The notes under the pieces are model-generated. The model made no database searches and was not told the DNA's origin. It saw nothing but the letters and a program-made list of their open reading frames with translations. A stretch of DNA of 64,000 nt from Desulfuromonas sp. CSMB_57 (GTDB lineage Bacteria > Desulfobacterota > Desulfuromonadia > Desulfuromonadales > Syntrophotaleaceae), in the NCBI RefSeq assembly GCF_020194955.2, contig NZ_JAFCIY020000006.1:186001-250000 (forward strand), given 5' to 3'. Below are positions 4,395-34,395 of the stretch, piece after piece (position 1 is the first letter of the stretch; the number at the start of each line of letters is the position of its first letter). The translations under genes were made by a program, and so were the position numbers.

Positions 4395-5342
4395 TCACAT
4401 CCCCAATTCAATCGGCAACGGACCGCCATTGCAGGGATACCTCCTCAGCAACCGTTCCAGGTCTTCCGGCAGGGGCGCGGTCAGCGTCAAGACCCGTTGG
4501 GTCACGGGATGGCGCAGCTGCATTTGCCAGGCATGCAGCATCTGCCGCGGGACGGGTGCATCCCGCCAGGATGACGGCCCACCGTAGCGAGCATCGCCGA
4601 GGAGGGGGTGGCCGGCTTCGGAGAAATGTAACCGAATCTGATGGGAACGACCAGTCGGAATTTCGACAGCCACCAGATCCGCATCGCCCCATGACGCCAG
4701 GACCCGATAGCGGGTAATGGCCAACTTGCCGCCCCGTGCCACGGAGGTCATAAGATTGCTGCTGTGTTTGCGGGCTATGGTCGAGCGAAATTCACCGACC
4801 GGTTCCGCCAGACCACCCCGGACCATGGCCAGATAACGCTTGGTCACCTGTCCTTCGGCGAACTGCCGCGTCAGGGGACCATGGGCCTTGGGATGGATGG
4901 AAAAAACCAGCAGGCCGGAGGTGTCACGATCCAGGCGCTGAACCATGCCGAGGCCGGGCTTGTCCAATGGCCGGTTGGGATTGGACAGATAATTCAACAG
5001 CGCTTCGTAAAGGGTCCCCTTGTAGCGTGCCGGTGTCGGCTGGGTGGCCACCCCGGCAGGTTTGTTGATGGCAATGAGGTAACCGTCCCGAAACAGCACC
5101 AGGGACTCATCCAGGACAAAAGGCTCGCCGCCGTCATCGAGAAAGACCTCGATAGCCGACCCGGCATTCAATACCTGCCCGCAGCGACGCTGGCGGCGGC
5201 CATCGAGGTGCACGCCGCCAATATCGATGATGCGACGAATCTGACCCCGGGAAAAGCCGTTCATGGCTCCGGCCAAAAACCGGTCCAGGCGCTCGCCATG
5301 GTTCTGCGGATCAACAGTCAGGCGAAAAACGTTTTGTTTCAT
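4395..5342 (-). CDS. RluA-family pseudouridine synthase
   Basis: Isomerises specific uridines in rRNA or tRNA to pseudouridine. From the ATG at 5342 the product is 315 residues: an S4 RNA-binding domain (about 17-50) followed by the catalytic domain with NKPAGVATQP (93-102) and QRLDRDTSGLLVFS (135-148), in which D138 matches the catalytic aspartate. An in-frame extension upstream to 5468 exists but lacks family similarity and has no good ribosome-binding site, so I chose the internal ATG. Which of the RluA/RluC/RluD targets it modifies cannot be settled by eye. Confidence 0.92.
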   Translation of the reverse strand: MKQNVFRLTVDPQNHGERLDRFLAGAMNGFSRGQIRRIIDIGGVHLDGRRQRRCGQVLNAGSAIEVFLDDGGEPFVLDESLVLFRDGYLIAINKPAGVATQPTPARYKGTLYEALLNYLSNPNRPLDKPGLGMVQRLDRDTSGLLVFSIHPKAHGPLTRQFAEGQVTKRYLAMVRGGLAEPVGEFRSTIARKHSSNLMTSVARGGKLAITRYRVLASWGDADLVAVEIPTGRSHQIRLHFSEAGHPLLGDARYGGPSSWRDAPVPRQMLHAWQMQLRHPVTQRVLTLTAPLPEDLERLLRRYPCNGGPLPIELGM

Positions 5343-5461
5343 CTCAGGATTTTGCTTTCCCCGCGCCCACCCGCAGGAAACTGCCGCTGCAGATGAAAAA
5401 GCTATGTGCCACGGTTCGATTGTCTCGGCAGGTGAGCACCATAAAAAAAGATGACGACAAT

Positions 5462-5489
5462 TTGACAACCGCCGATTCCTTGTTAGTAT
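5462..5489 (+). promoter_or_regulatory. Sigma70-like promoter for the 5.5 kb structured region
   Basis: TTGACA at 5462-5467 is separated by 16 bp from TAGTAT at 5484-5489, putting a start near 5496. It points into a region with no protein-coding gene on the plus strand, so its product would be an untranslated RNA. Confidence 0.5.
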
Positions 5490-5495
5490 ACCAAC

Positions 5496-5755
5496 ACGCA
5501 GGGCGCTACAGCCCGCGACGAATCTGGGATGACCGGCATACTTTCAAAAAGCTGACCAACACACCTTCAAGGAGCACCTGATCCTGGCCGTGGTGTGCCA
5601 GCCCACCGCGCAGTGGGACGCCTGAAATGGCCGTCAGGGCTCGAAAGCTATGGCGACCGGTCGCCTTTTGCGGTAAAGCCGGCATCCCGGAGCCATTCAG
5701 GTATCGGCAGACCTGACACACCAAGGGCCTCGTTCCGCCGGAACGAGGCCCTTGG
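5496..5755 (+). ncRNA. Candidate structured non-coding RNA
   Basis: No conserved protein fits either strand of this 260-bp gap. The sequence is dense in complementary segments. GGGATG-a-CCGGC (5526-5537) matches 5678-5688; CACACC (5560-5565) matches GGTGTG (5592-5597); CCCAC (5602-5606) matches GTGGG (5613-5617); CCTGAA-a-TGGC (5621-5631) matches GCCATTCAGG (5692-5701); a 14-bp palindrome lies at 5652-5665; CAGGT/ACCTG at 5698-5715. The 5526/5688 and 5621/5701 pairings cross, so they form either a pseudoknot or two exclusive folds. A promoter precedes it and a 16-bp hairpin ends it. It does not read as tmRNA, SRP RNA, RNase P or a GEMM riboswitch. A 6S-like RNA is possible from the ~185-nt closing distance, but unproven. 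Confidence 0.45.
5721..5755. terminator. Strong 16-bp hairpin between the thioesterase gene and the candidate RNA
   Basis: Arms CCAAGGGCCTCGTTCC and GGAACGAGGCCCTTGG pair perfectly around a GCC loop. It lies 22 bp past the thioesterase stop on the minus strand and at the end of the candidate plus-strand RNA. Neither side has a proper T run, so it may be a bidirectional stop or an RNA 3' stabiliser. Confidence 0.6.
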
Positions 5756-5777
5756 ACGTTTCAAGTTGTTATCAACG

Positions 5778-6164
5778 TCATGCTTCCAGGATATGTCTGG
5801 CCAGGACAAAGCAGGTGAAGGTTCCTTCGAACACCGTCTTCTCTCCGTCCATGACGCGGCAGTGCACTTGCCGCTTTTTTCCGGCCGTCTCGACCATTTC
5901 GGCCCGGGCCTCCAGTTCCGCCCCGACCCGCACCGGCGCCAAAAACCGAACCTCGGCCCCGCCGAGAACCACATGGGGATCATTGACCGCCAGCATGGCC
6001 GCGAAATCGGCAAGTCCGAAGGTAAACCCGCCATGAACCAGGCCCTTTTCGTCGGCCGCCATTTCCGGGCGGGTCAGCAGGCGCGCTACGGCCCGTCCTT
6101 CCGCCAACGTCACGCTACGTCCGACCCATTCCGGGGAAATCGCCAAATGCGTGTTGACATCCAT
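5778..6164 (-). CDS. Hotdog-fold thioesterase (PaaI-like)
   Basis: 128 residues with the hotdog thioesterase pattern: GLVHGGFTFGLADFAAMLAV (about 41-60) is the central helix with the catalytic-site loop, followed by the beta-sheet segment ARFLAPVRVG-like (EVRFLAPVRVGAELEARAEM). These enzymes hydrolyse acyl-CoA or acyl-carrier thioesters; the substrate cannot be told. The ATG lies 3 bp after the ihfB stop, with GGAG inside the end of ihfB, so the genes are translationally close and co-transcribed. Confidence 0.8.
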   Translation of the reverse strand: MDVNTHLAISPEWVGRSVTLAEGRAVARLLTRPEMAADEKGLVHGGFTFGLADFAAMLAVNDPHVVLGGAEVRFLAPVRVGAELEARAEMVETAGKKRQVHCRVMDGEKTVFEGTFTCFVLARHILEA

Positions 6165-6167
6165 GGG

Positions 6168-6449
6168 CTACTCCAGGTCAACGCGTTCGCGAAGTTCTTT
6201 TCCGGTTTTGAAGAATGCGGTTTTTTTGACGGGAATGGAAACCACTTCCCCGGTTTTTGGGTTGCGGGCCTCGCGGGCATCCCGCACCCTTACGGTAAAG
6301 GACCCGAACCCGCGGATTTCGACCCGCTCGCCCTCCACCAGGGCATCACGAATGCTGTCCAGCAGGGTATTGACCACCATTTCCGATTCGCGCTTGCTGA
6401 GCAGACCGTTCTCAACAGAAAGCTTTTCGATCAATTCACTTTTGGTCAT
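6168..6449 (-). CDS. ihfB: Integration host factor beta-type subunit (HU/IHF family)
   Basis: 93-residue DNA-bending protein. The HU/IHF signature runs from GFGSFTVRVRDAREARNP to the KKTAFFKTGKELRERV tail, with the Arg-Asn-Pro-Lys beta arm (about 61-65) that intercalates into the minor groove. Start chosen at ATG 6449, which has GGAGGGG about nine bases upstream; a GTG nine bases earlier sits too close to that site. Placement after rpsA and sppA agrees with the usual rpsA-ihfB linkage and favours the beta-subunit name over HU. Confidence 0.9.
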   Translation of the reverse strand: MTKSELIEKLSVENGLLSKRESEMVVNTLLDSIRDALVEGERVEIRGFGSFTVRVRDAREARNPKTGEVVSIPVKKTAFFKTGKELRERVDLE

Positions 6450-6472
6450 GCAGCACACCCCTCCGAAATAAA

Positions 6473-7357
6473 TTATTCAGACCACAAAAATTGGGCTCCC
6501 CCAACTGCCTCGGATCCCAGGCCCCGGCGCAGATTGTGCAGGGTTTCACTCACCAGATAATCCACCAACCGCGCCTTTTTTTTGGGAGGGTAAACCAATT
6601 TCGGTTCACCTTTGATACCGGCCAGTTGGCCGGCCACAGTGGCGGCATCGTAAAGGCTTCCCAGTTCATCGACCAGACCAACGGTGACGGCCTGCCGGCC
6701 GGTAAAGATGCGCCCGTCAGCCAGCACCTTGACCTTGGCCGGCGCCATCTGCCGAGCTTCGGCCACTGCATCGACAAACTGCTCATACACATCGTCGATG
6801 ACGCCCTGCAGGATCCTGCGATCGGAGTCGCTCATGCCACGCAGCGGCGAACCGATGTCCTTGTGTTCCCCGCTTTTGACAACCTGACTTTTGACGCCGA
6901 CCTTCCGAAACAGTTCCTCGATGTTGGTCACTTCCATGATCACACCGATACTGCCGGTGATGGTGCCGGGATTGGCCAGAATCCGCGCCGCCGGCAGACT
7001 CACATAGTACCCCCCGGAAGCCGCCACGGAACCCATGGAAACCACCACCGGTTTAACCTTGGCAACCCGGGCGATCTGATCGTGAATCTCCTGAGAAGGC
7101 GCCACCCCGCCGCCGGGTGAATCCACCCGCAGGACAATGGCTTTGATGGAATTGTCGTCCCGAAAGGCCACCAACTGTTCGTTGATTTCCTGGGAGGAGG
7201 TCAAAACCCCGGTGATCTCGACGACACCGACCTTCTCTCCCATGGAAAACCGCGCCCCACCCCCGGAACAACGGCCGAGCAGGGCGGCAAAAACCACAAA
7301 CAAAATAAAGATGGCCCCGAACGTCACCAGGGCCATCAGAAAAGGTCTCTTCTTCAT
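6473..7357 (-). CDS. sppA: Signal peptide peptidase SppA (S49 family)
   Basis: Membrane serine protease that degrades cleaved signal peptides. From ATG 7357 the product is 294 residues with an N-terminal membrane anchor (about 5-30), DSPGGGV, the nucleophile loop MGSVAASGGYYVS, and GEHKDIGSP, which carries the Lys of the Ser-Lys dyad in the short (36K) class. This is the half-length bacterial type, not the double-length E. coli form. The upstream in-frame extension to 7408 is not family-like. It follows rpsA by 60 bp on the same strand. Confidence 0.94.
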   Translation of the reverse strand: MKKRPFLMALVTFGAIFILFVVFAALLGRCSGGGARFSMGEKVGVVEITGVLTSSQEINEQLVAFRDDNSIKAIVLRVDSPGGGVAPSQEIHDQIARVAKVKPVVVSMGSVAASGGYYVSLPAARILANPGTITGSIGVIMEVTNIEELFRKVGVKSQVVKSGEHKDIGSPLRGMSDSDRRILQGVIDDVYEQFVDAVAEARQMAPAKVKVLADGRIFTGRQAVTVGLVDELGSLYDAATVAGQLAGIKGEPKLVYPPKKKARLVDYLVSETLHNLRRGLGSEAVGGAQFLWSE

Positions 7358-30445: not shown

Positions 30446-30976
30446 TCAATATCGCTGGTCGGCAAATTCCACCCAGCCGCCGGCCTGCACCAGCGCCTTG
30501 TCGAAGGGGGAAATCTCGAAACCGCACTCGAACTTCTGATCTCCGGCACAGGCTACCACACGCTGGGCCGCCAGATCGACGGACACCTGCACTTCTCCCG
30601 CCGTCTGCAGGGCAAACAGCCGCTCCAAATCGGCGGCCGGCAATTCGATGGCCAGCATGCCGCAGTTGAACATGTTCTGACGGAAGATGCGCGCGTAGCT
30701 TTCGGCGATGACGGTGTGAATGCCGTTGACCTCCAGTGCCCAGGGAGCATGTTCCCGCGAGGAACCGCAGCCGAAATTGCGGCGGGTCACGATCACCGAG
30801 GCCTGCTGCAAGGCCGGACCTTGAGGATCGAAACCGTCGAGCAGCAAATCCTCCAGCAAATAAGGCTTCAGCGCATCCTTGGTGACCTCGGTGAGATAGC
30901 GCGCCGGAATGATTTCATCCGTATTGATATCGGAGCGGTCCAAAAACAGGGCCGTTCCACCGAAAGTTCTTTCCAT
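30446..30976 (-). CDS. leuD: 3-isopropylmalate dehydratase small subunit
   Basis: Swivel domain of isopropylmalate isomerase. 176 residues with NTDEIIPARYLTEV at the N-terminus and NFGCGSSREHAPWAL (about 67-81), the family signature. The compact size matches the shorter LeuD class that pairs with 420-residue LeuC. It follows leuC by 39 bp. Confidence 0.96.
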   Translation of the reverse strand: MERTFGGTALFLDRSDINTDEIIPARYLTEVTKDALKPYLLEDLLLDGFDPQGPALQQASVIVTRRNFGCGSSREHAPWALEVNGIHTVIAESYARIFRQNMFNCGMLAIELPAADLERLFALQTAGEVQVSVDLAAQRVVACAGDQKFECGFEISPFDKALVQAGGWVEFADQRY

Positions 30977-32349: not shown

Positions 32350-33891
<1,542 letters not shown>

Positions 33892-34131: not shown

Positions 34132-34395
34132 CCGATAAAAAAAAACCCCCGACCCGTTCAGGGGCGAGAGCTGAGGCTTCGCGGTACCACCCTGATTCGA
34201 CTCCCCGGAGAGAGTCCTTGATTGGCCTTTTACGCAGGCTTACGTCAACCGCTAGCCGACAGAGCGCCGGGTTCACGGTTGCGGCTCCGAGGCGAGTTCG
34301 GCCCTCCTGATACCGGCTCGCAGCGACCGCCGGCTCTCTCCAATCAGGGCTGTGGCTTACTACTCCTCATCACGGCCTTTCCAATCTGTTGCTTC
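34132..34395 (-). promoter_or_regulatory. T-box riboswitch of leuA, CUC (Leu) specifier
   Basis: Read on the minus strand, the leader has the T-box order: AGTAGTAAG in lower stem I, AGAGAG followed by the GGTCGCTGCGA distal loop region, the specifier-side GAACTCGCC with codon CTC at 34296-34294, then the antiterminator core GGGTGGTACCGCG (34192-34180), then a GC hairpin and nine T (34145-34137). The CTC codon means uncharged tRNA-Leu would bind and prevent termination. T-box leaders on leuA are known in Geobacter relatives. The terminator ends 245 bp before the leuA ATG, a long distance; nothing else was recognised in that stretch (33892-34131). Confidence 0.9.

Follow-up and report, generated by a model that had tools for sequence, protein, structure and literature searches.

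We propose, with high confidence, that positions 5518–5697 of the plus strand are a gene for 6S RNA (SsrS), one of three found in this genome by a search with the Rfam model RF00013, and that its RNA would hold the housekeeping RNA polymerase until the enzyme is freed by a product RNA beginning with G. Coordinates are those of the window, the whole 64,000-nucleotide stretch of Desulfuromonas DNA that was analysed, and we call this copy the rluA-locus paralogue after the gene beside it. The RNA is of an ordinary kind: an unannotated, diverged copy that many families of its order have retained. What makes it interesting is the set of paralogues to which it belongs, rather than the way in which it was first framed, as an undescribed structured RNA with crossing long-range helices. 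These 6S RNAs differ in their bubbles and promoters and have been kept over many families, and they offer a natural set for testing why certain bacteria retain more than one 6S RNA.

Identity and place of the gene

Why does a 6S gene not appear in a default Rfam scan of the window, which lists a T-box elsewhere and nothing in this stretch? The reason is its score: at a lowered threshold, 5518–5697 (+) matches RF00013 at 40.0 bits, under the gathering cut-off of 46.4 bits. The E-value of this match is 1.6e-6 (801 bases against 4227 families; 1.5e-6 when RF00013 is run against the whole genome), and the alignment is full length, covering positions 1–187 of the 187 in the model. Furthermore, the hold-out model R2, built only from 13 syntenic rluA-locus copies of other families (alignment A4), scores 88.8 bits at 5518–5697 (E-value 8e-22) when run against the 64-kb window, in which the next match scores 5.5 bits. 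The would-be new class is thus a missed 6S paralogue lying just under the Rfam cut-off. The earlier note had named a 6S-like RNA as one possibility, and this is borne out by the full-length RF00013 match, by R2 and by the covarying fold described below; the Infernal search against Rfam that it had suggested does return a known class in substance once orthologues are used, although the default cut-off is not reached. Seven other Rfam families that appeared at the lowered threshold (a SOX2OT exon, MIR families and others) scored well below their cut-offs and were rejected. The T-box leader (RF00230, 107.9 bits) lies at 34157–34382 (−), upstream of a 513-residue minus-strand open reading frame (32350–33891) that we take, from the way it reads, to be a 2-isopropylmalate synthase.

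The stretch 5462–5755 sits between an rluA-type pseudouridine synthase gene (4395–5342; Pfam PF00849), which is divergent from the 6S gene, and a thioesterase/ihfB/sppA/rpsA run, all on the minus strand, the names rpsA and ihfB being assigned from sequence. The thioesterase gene (4HBT; 5778–6164, −; PF03061) is convergent with the 6S gene and is followed by the ihfB-like gene (6168–6458, −; PF00216, Bac_DNA_binding). Upstream of the 6S gene is the sigma70-type promoter that had been pointed out earlier, at 5462–5489 (+): TTGACA at 5462–5467, a 16-nucleotide spacer ending in TG plus one base, and TAGTAT at 5484–5489. Such a site is weak evidence when taken by itself, since 5300–6500 contains one promoter-like site and shuffled sequence contains 0.4 on average (sd 0.6); the evidence is its conservation. 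TTGACA-N16-TAnnnT with the TG is found in 29 of 35 rluA-locus copies, and three more have TTGACT with the same spacing and TG, whereas the exact TTGACA occurs in none of the 29 copies of the traB-locus class described below, whose −10 is mostly TATA[CG]T; these counts compare the best site in the ~110 upstream bases of each copy, with no shuffle control. Transcription would start at about 5496, some 7 nucleotides past the −10, and would give the RNA a short 5′ leader (5496–5517) with a small hairpin, GGGC-GCUACA-GCCC, predicted by folding.

The absence of a downstream plus-strand gene had been taken to favor a trans-acting RNA over a riboswitch, and as far as sequence can show this is right. 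The genes that flank the 6S gene in the window are on the opposite strand, and the same is true of every RluA (34 found) and IhfB (33 found) among the 35 rluA-locus copies. A riboswitch or leader of a downstream gene was therefore rejected for want of a same-strand gene flanking the 6S gene in the window. A coding region was rejected as well; Pfam gave no match at E ≤ 0.01 for any of the four overlapping open reading frames that were examined.

The 6S rod and its central bubble

The rod fold typical of 6S RNA, consisting of a closing stem, a central bubble and an apical stem, is maintained by compensatory change. The consensus fold over 22 copies (alignment A1) has 36 pairs, 20 of which show a two-sided change. 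Counted with controls and leaving out a small 3′ hairpin of two weak pairs, the remaining 34 pairs are formed in 95.2% of cells, and 18 of them change on both sides compared with 10.4 in shuffled alignments, a value that none of 500 shuffles reached. Related sequences can exceed such shuffles even without structure, so that slid registers are the better control; slid along the alignment, the same structure is paired in 34–42% of cells. Similarly, the 49-pair structure derived from Rfam and placed on the window sequence is paired in 77.5% of cells (35–47% in slid registers) and shows two-sided change in 29 pairs versus 21.6 in shuffles; its poorly paired parts across copies are the inner closing stem (71%) and the lower apical stem (62%), which are helices 2 and 3 of the Rfam fold. 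Covarying pairs in relatives, proposed earlier as a check, are thus present, and they belong to the 6S rod.

The first long helix that had been noticed (5526–5537 with 5678–5688) is real and is part of the closing stem, in which 5523–5536 pairs with 5679–5691 and the 13 consensus pairs are 97.6% paired over the 22 copies. The apical stem-loop, GGUGUGCCAGCCC...GGGACGCCUGA, occupies 5586–5632 and is the portion of the gene that blastn detects in relatives. The long complementary arms and the terminal 16-bp hairpin (5721–5755, +) are likewise present as described. The segment 5498–5756 folds at −128.1 kcal/mol versus −96.2 (sd 5.5) for shuffles, with none of 200 shuffles as good, and this is partly due to the terminal hairpin: 5498–5704, which lacks it, has a z-score of −3.2, and one of 200 shuffles folds as well. 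Neither side of the hairpin carries a T-run, and the scan for terminator-like sites did not pick it out. It is placed where the 6S unit and the thioesterase/ihfB unit converge, and is probably a boundary hairpin. A terminator search over the rluA-locus copies gave no clear rule: a hairpin of at least 7 bp within 140 nucleotides is present in 21 of 35 rluA-locus and 22 of 29 traB-locus copies, and at least four T in the nine bases after the best hairpin in 4 of 35 and 16 of 29, respectively.

The second long helix, 5621–5631 with 5692–5701, would cross the first, and the earlier note had read the two as a pseudoknot or as the two exclusive folds of a switch in a new class of structured RNA. To this reading we give almost no credence. 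The segments are indeed complementary in the window sequence, over 10 Watson-Crick pairs with one bulge, and across the copies the cells of the helix are paired slightly more often than in shuffles (48.6% versus 45.4%, reached by 2 of 500), a figure to which the window sequence, the source of the helix, itself contributes. The helix nevertheless exists on paper only. At most 7 of its 10 pairs can form in any of the 21 other copies, its pairs changed on both sides number 3 where shuffles give 3.0, and its covariation score is reached by 39 of 500 shuffles. A Watson-Crick helix of this size arises in 27 of 200 shuffles, and in 191 of 200 if G-U pairs are allowed. Being neither conserved nor unusual, the crossing helix is no evidence of a pseudoknot, and it would disrupt part of the 3′ arm of the apical stem of the 6S fold. 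Mutually exclusive pairing does belong to 6S biology, by a route other than the crossing helices. On the 3′ side of the central bubble (5652–5665), GGUC at 5659–5662 would pair with the GACC of the 5′ side; when the site of product RNA synthesis is constrained to be unpaired, the 3′ side is predicted to form a local hairpin, as illustrated with five sequences. In the window copy, 5652–5665 reads GGCGACCGGTCGCC, a perfect palindrome that was seen in none of the 21 other copies aligned in A1.

GACCAAC, at 5554–5560 (+) on the 5′ side of the bubble, aligns with the start region of E. coli 6S RNA. The motif G[AG]CCAAC is present there in all 35 rluA-locus copies and in none of the 29 traB-locus copies, 17 other copies or 11 copies from outside the order, counts that draw on RF00013, which was not built for the motif and finds 25 of the 35, and on model R1, which was. 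Each of the remaining classes within the order has its own sequence at this place: GG[AT]ATA, confined among the four groups to the traB-locus class, in 28 of its 29 copies, and CG[CT]C[AG][AG]C in 15 of the 17 other copies. The 5′ side of the bubble is thus a conserved template, which the polymerase would copy. Counted along ssrS and in the Rfam frame, C5560 aligns with U44 of E. coli 6S RNA, which we take to be the start of the E. coli product RNA, and the predicted product RNA of the window copy is therefore 5′-GUUGGUCAGC, with a G start. In the traB-locus class, whose bubble is mostly GCGGAAUA, the product would start with A at the U of GGAAU; the Rfam frame is off by one base at the start of the traB copy, and the A start is a matter of judgement. 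For the third copy in the genome the Rfam frame also gives C at the start of the product RNA, and for the rest of its class the start was read from the motif alone. A G start has precedent, since the product RNA of B. subtilis 6S-1 starts with G and rises in amount with GTP, according to excerpts of the report (PMC12005410).

Distribution and relationships of the paralogues

In the genome of the window, RF00013 matches the traB-locus copy on contig C18 (233302–233481, 78.5 bits), a copy on contig C60 (121796–121975, 46.8 bits) and the window copy, at 40.0 bits the lowest of the three. The neighbors of the three copies were sought by tblastn in 60 stretches around 6S matches and in 20 more, and copies turned up repeatedly in two settings, one upstream of a TraB-family gene and the other, that of the window, between rluA and ihfB. 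Of the 35 rluA-locus copies, found in 35 genomes, 34 have RluA nearby (within 0.4 kb for 32 and at ~1.5 kb for 2), 33 have IhfB and 18 the thioesterase. For one copy, the short locus (L143) shows no RluA and a longer stretch (L224) shows it at ~1.5 kb. Nearness of RluA and IhfB is partly a matter of definition, since the class was assigned by neighborhood; their strand was no part of the definition, and wherever found they lie on the strand opposite to the 6S gene. The third paralogue (C60; 3997–4176, −, of stretch L064) is just downstream of an AI-2E transporter gene and on the same strand, and within the family it groups with the copies of L066, L081, L218, L219 and L220 (100/100).

All 58 genomes searched with RF00013, that of the window included, have a 6S match at E ≤ 1, and 55 have one over the cut-off; R1 gives at least two matches at E ≤ 0.01 in 42 of the 58, counting partial matches. 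The filters of these searches, as of the R1 searches of the class and phylum, were stricter, so that weak matches were lost. The RF00013 table of the 58 genomes contains 25 of the 35 rluA-locus copies; five are missing from it though their genomes were searched (G001, G011, G013, G015 and G040), and five are from genomes searched with R1 only. Only 16 of the 25 exceed the Rfam cut-off, so that about a third of the rluA-locus copies detected by RF00013 (9 of 25) stay hidden behind it. Three copies outside model R1 (L067, L085 and L088) were found at the same place with 121–131 bits. A DNA pattern combining the bubble and apical motifs, scanned over the contigs of named genomes, gave 37 stretches. 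Twelve of these are titled Desulfuromonadales or its genera, some of which we assign to the order through the genus name. Each of the 12 gave an R2 match with RluA close by, and several of them duplicate records of the searched genomes (for example, L184 is G037:C40, whose copy is in R2). The other 25 have no R2 match at E ≤ 0.01. In the class as a whole, R1 matches 65 of 117 genomes at E ≤ 1e-14, 50 in the order of the window and 15 in family f23 outside it, and some of these matches fall outside the rluA class; neither rluA nor ihfB was hit in the stretches examined from f23 (five) and f22 (one). At the level of the phylum, R1 matches 12 of 118 genomes at E ≤ 1e-10; in the 11 loci taken from other genomes (~3 kb each), no rluA match was seen.

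Two further observations were made with these matches. Stretch L213 contains two 6S-like matches ~300 bases apart on the same strand (G056:C15:30356–30454 and 30757–30933), possibly tandem 6S genes; this genome, G056, has 7% contamination and six R1 matches. The antisense strand of three rluA-locus copies scores weakly with R1, at 18–21 bits (L098 3751–3928, L073 3517–3698 and L115 3475–3656), as expected because the 6S rod is near-palindromic.

In a tree of 92 copies, the traB-locus copies are set apart from all others by a branch with 100/100 support. The rluA-locus copies do not form one clade in this tree, the bootstrap being unsettled: two changes are needed, and where forks are poorly resolved these copies are interspersed with those of the other class. 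It is from their place and bubble, and not from the tree, that all rluA-locus copies likely descend from one gene.

Proposed function of the paralogues and comparison with known systems

How might the rluA-locus RNA act? In the 6S family, as studied in E. coli and B. subtilis, the RNA mimics an open promoter and holds the housekeeping holoenzyme until release by product RNA synthesis, according to excerpts of three reports (PMC4211561, PMC12005410, PMC8876501). By analogy, the gene would be transcribed from its own sigma70 promoter from about 5496, and the transcript would fold into a rod whose central bubble mimics an open promoter. The rod would bind the housekeeping RNA polymerase holoenzyme and keep the enzyme off DNA promoters. 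Finally, the enzyme, starting at C5560, would transcribe the 5′ side of the bubble into the short product RNA, and the complex would come apart. The paralogues probably template different product RNAs, since the rluA-locus bubble motif is absent from the traB-locus copies, and the rluA- and traB-locus copies probably answer to different conditions, since both bubble and promoter differ. The best reading of the window copy, in our judgement, is that of a second, separately regulated 6S RNA.

Two other readings accept the 6S descent of the gene. The window copy has the lowest Rfam score of the three in its genome and a long branch in the tree (0.76), so that its evolution may be quicker than that of its sister copies, and it may be a decaying, non-functional duplicate. 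We consider this highly unlikely: the class keeps its position in many families, its promoter, an invariant bubble motif and covarying stems, and the window copy itself retains the promoter, the bubble motif, the closing stem and the apical motif. It is also very unlikely that the RNA has taken on a changed job, such as binding the core polymerase or the holoenzyme of another sigma factor. A bubble peculiar to the class and a promoter unlike that of the traB-locus 6S would fit such a change, and Ms1, which differs from 6S RNA, offers a precedent in excerpts of two reports (PMC11077062, PMC9130861), but the structural hallmarks of 6S RNA that were tested are retained and nothing points to another partner.

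If the window copy is a second, separately regulated 6S RNA, what would a genome gain from several? The Desulfuromonadales may have two to four 6S RNAs whose separate promoters and near-invariant templates split the release of the polymerase between ATP and GTP sensing, between growth states or between holoenzymes, an idea that we offer tentatively and that may well prove wrong. Under it, release would depend on an A start at the traB locus and on a G start at the rluA locus and probably in most other copies.

A search of titles and the beginnings of abstracts found no report on 6S paralogues in Desulfuromonadales, and a prior report may nevertheless exist. Among the excerpts retrieved, one reports a single 6S RNA in Oleidesulfovibrio alaskensis G20 (PMC11124144), one lists one 6S RNA, GSUR0059, among the differentially expressed genes of Geobacter sulfurreducens (PMC10599522), and one names Firmicutes with two 6S copies (PMC8414754). 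Excerpts of another report place extra diverged 6S RNAs in an additional file (PMC2864571), and its main text does not contain the words Geobacter, Pelobacter or Desulfuromonas.

In comparison to E. coli 6S RNA (SsrS, RF00013), the window copy aligns over its full length and has the closing stem, the central bubble and the apical motif in common, but its score is sub-threshold, its bubble reads GACCAAC where that of E. coli reads GCCGAU, it has C instead of U at the start of the product RNA, and it lies near rluA and ihfB, whereas the E. coli gene lies between zapA and fau. The traB-locus 6S of the same genome belongs to the same RNA family and differs in its bubble, in its type of promoter and in its separate branch of the tree. 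Ms1 of Actinobacteria, as described in excerpts, is likewise a structurally 6S-related RNA that binds RNA polymerase, but it comes from another phylum and binds the core enzyme, and it is likened here by description. Close parallels are 6S-1 and 6S-2 of B. subtilis and 6S and 6S2 of L. pneumophila, which are also diverged 6S RNAs within one genome, and different expression of the two members of each pair is reported in excerpts of PMC4211561 and PMC3048289. In contrast to these pairs, three 6S RNAs were found here, each class has a bubble sequence of its own, and two of the paralogues have fixed neighborhoods in many families of one order.
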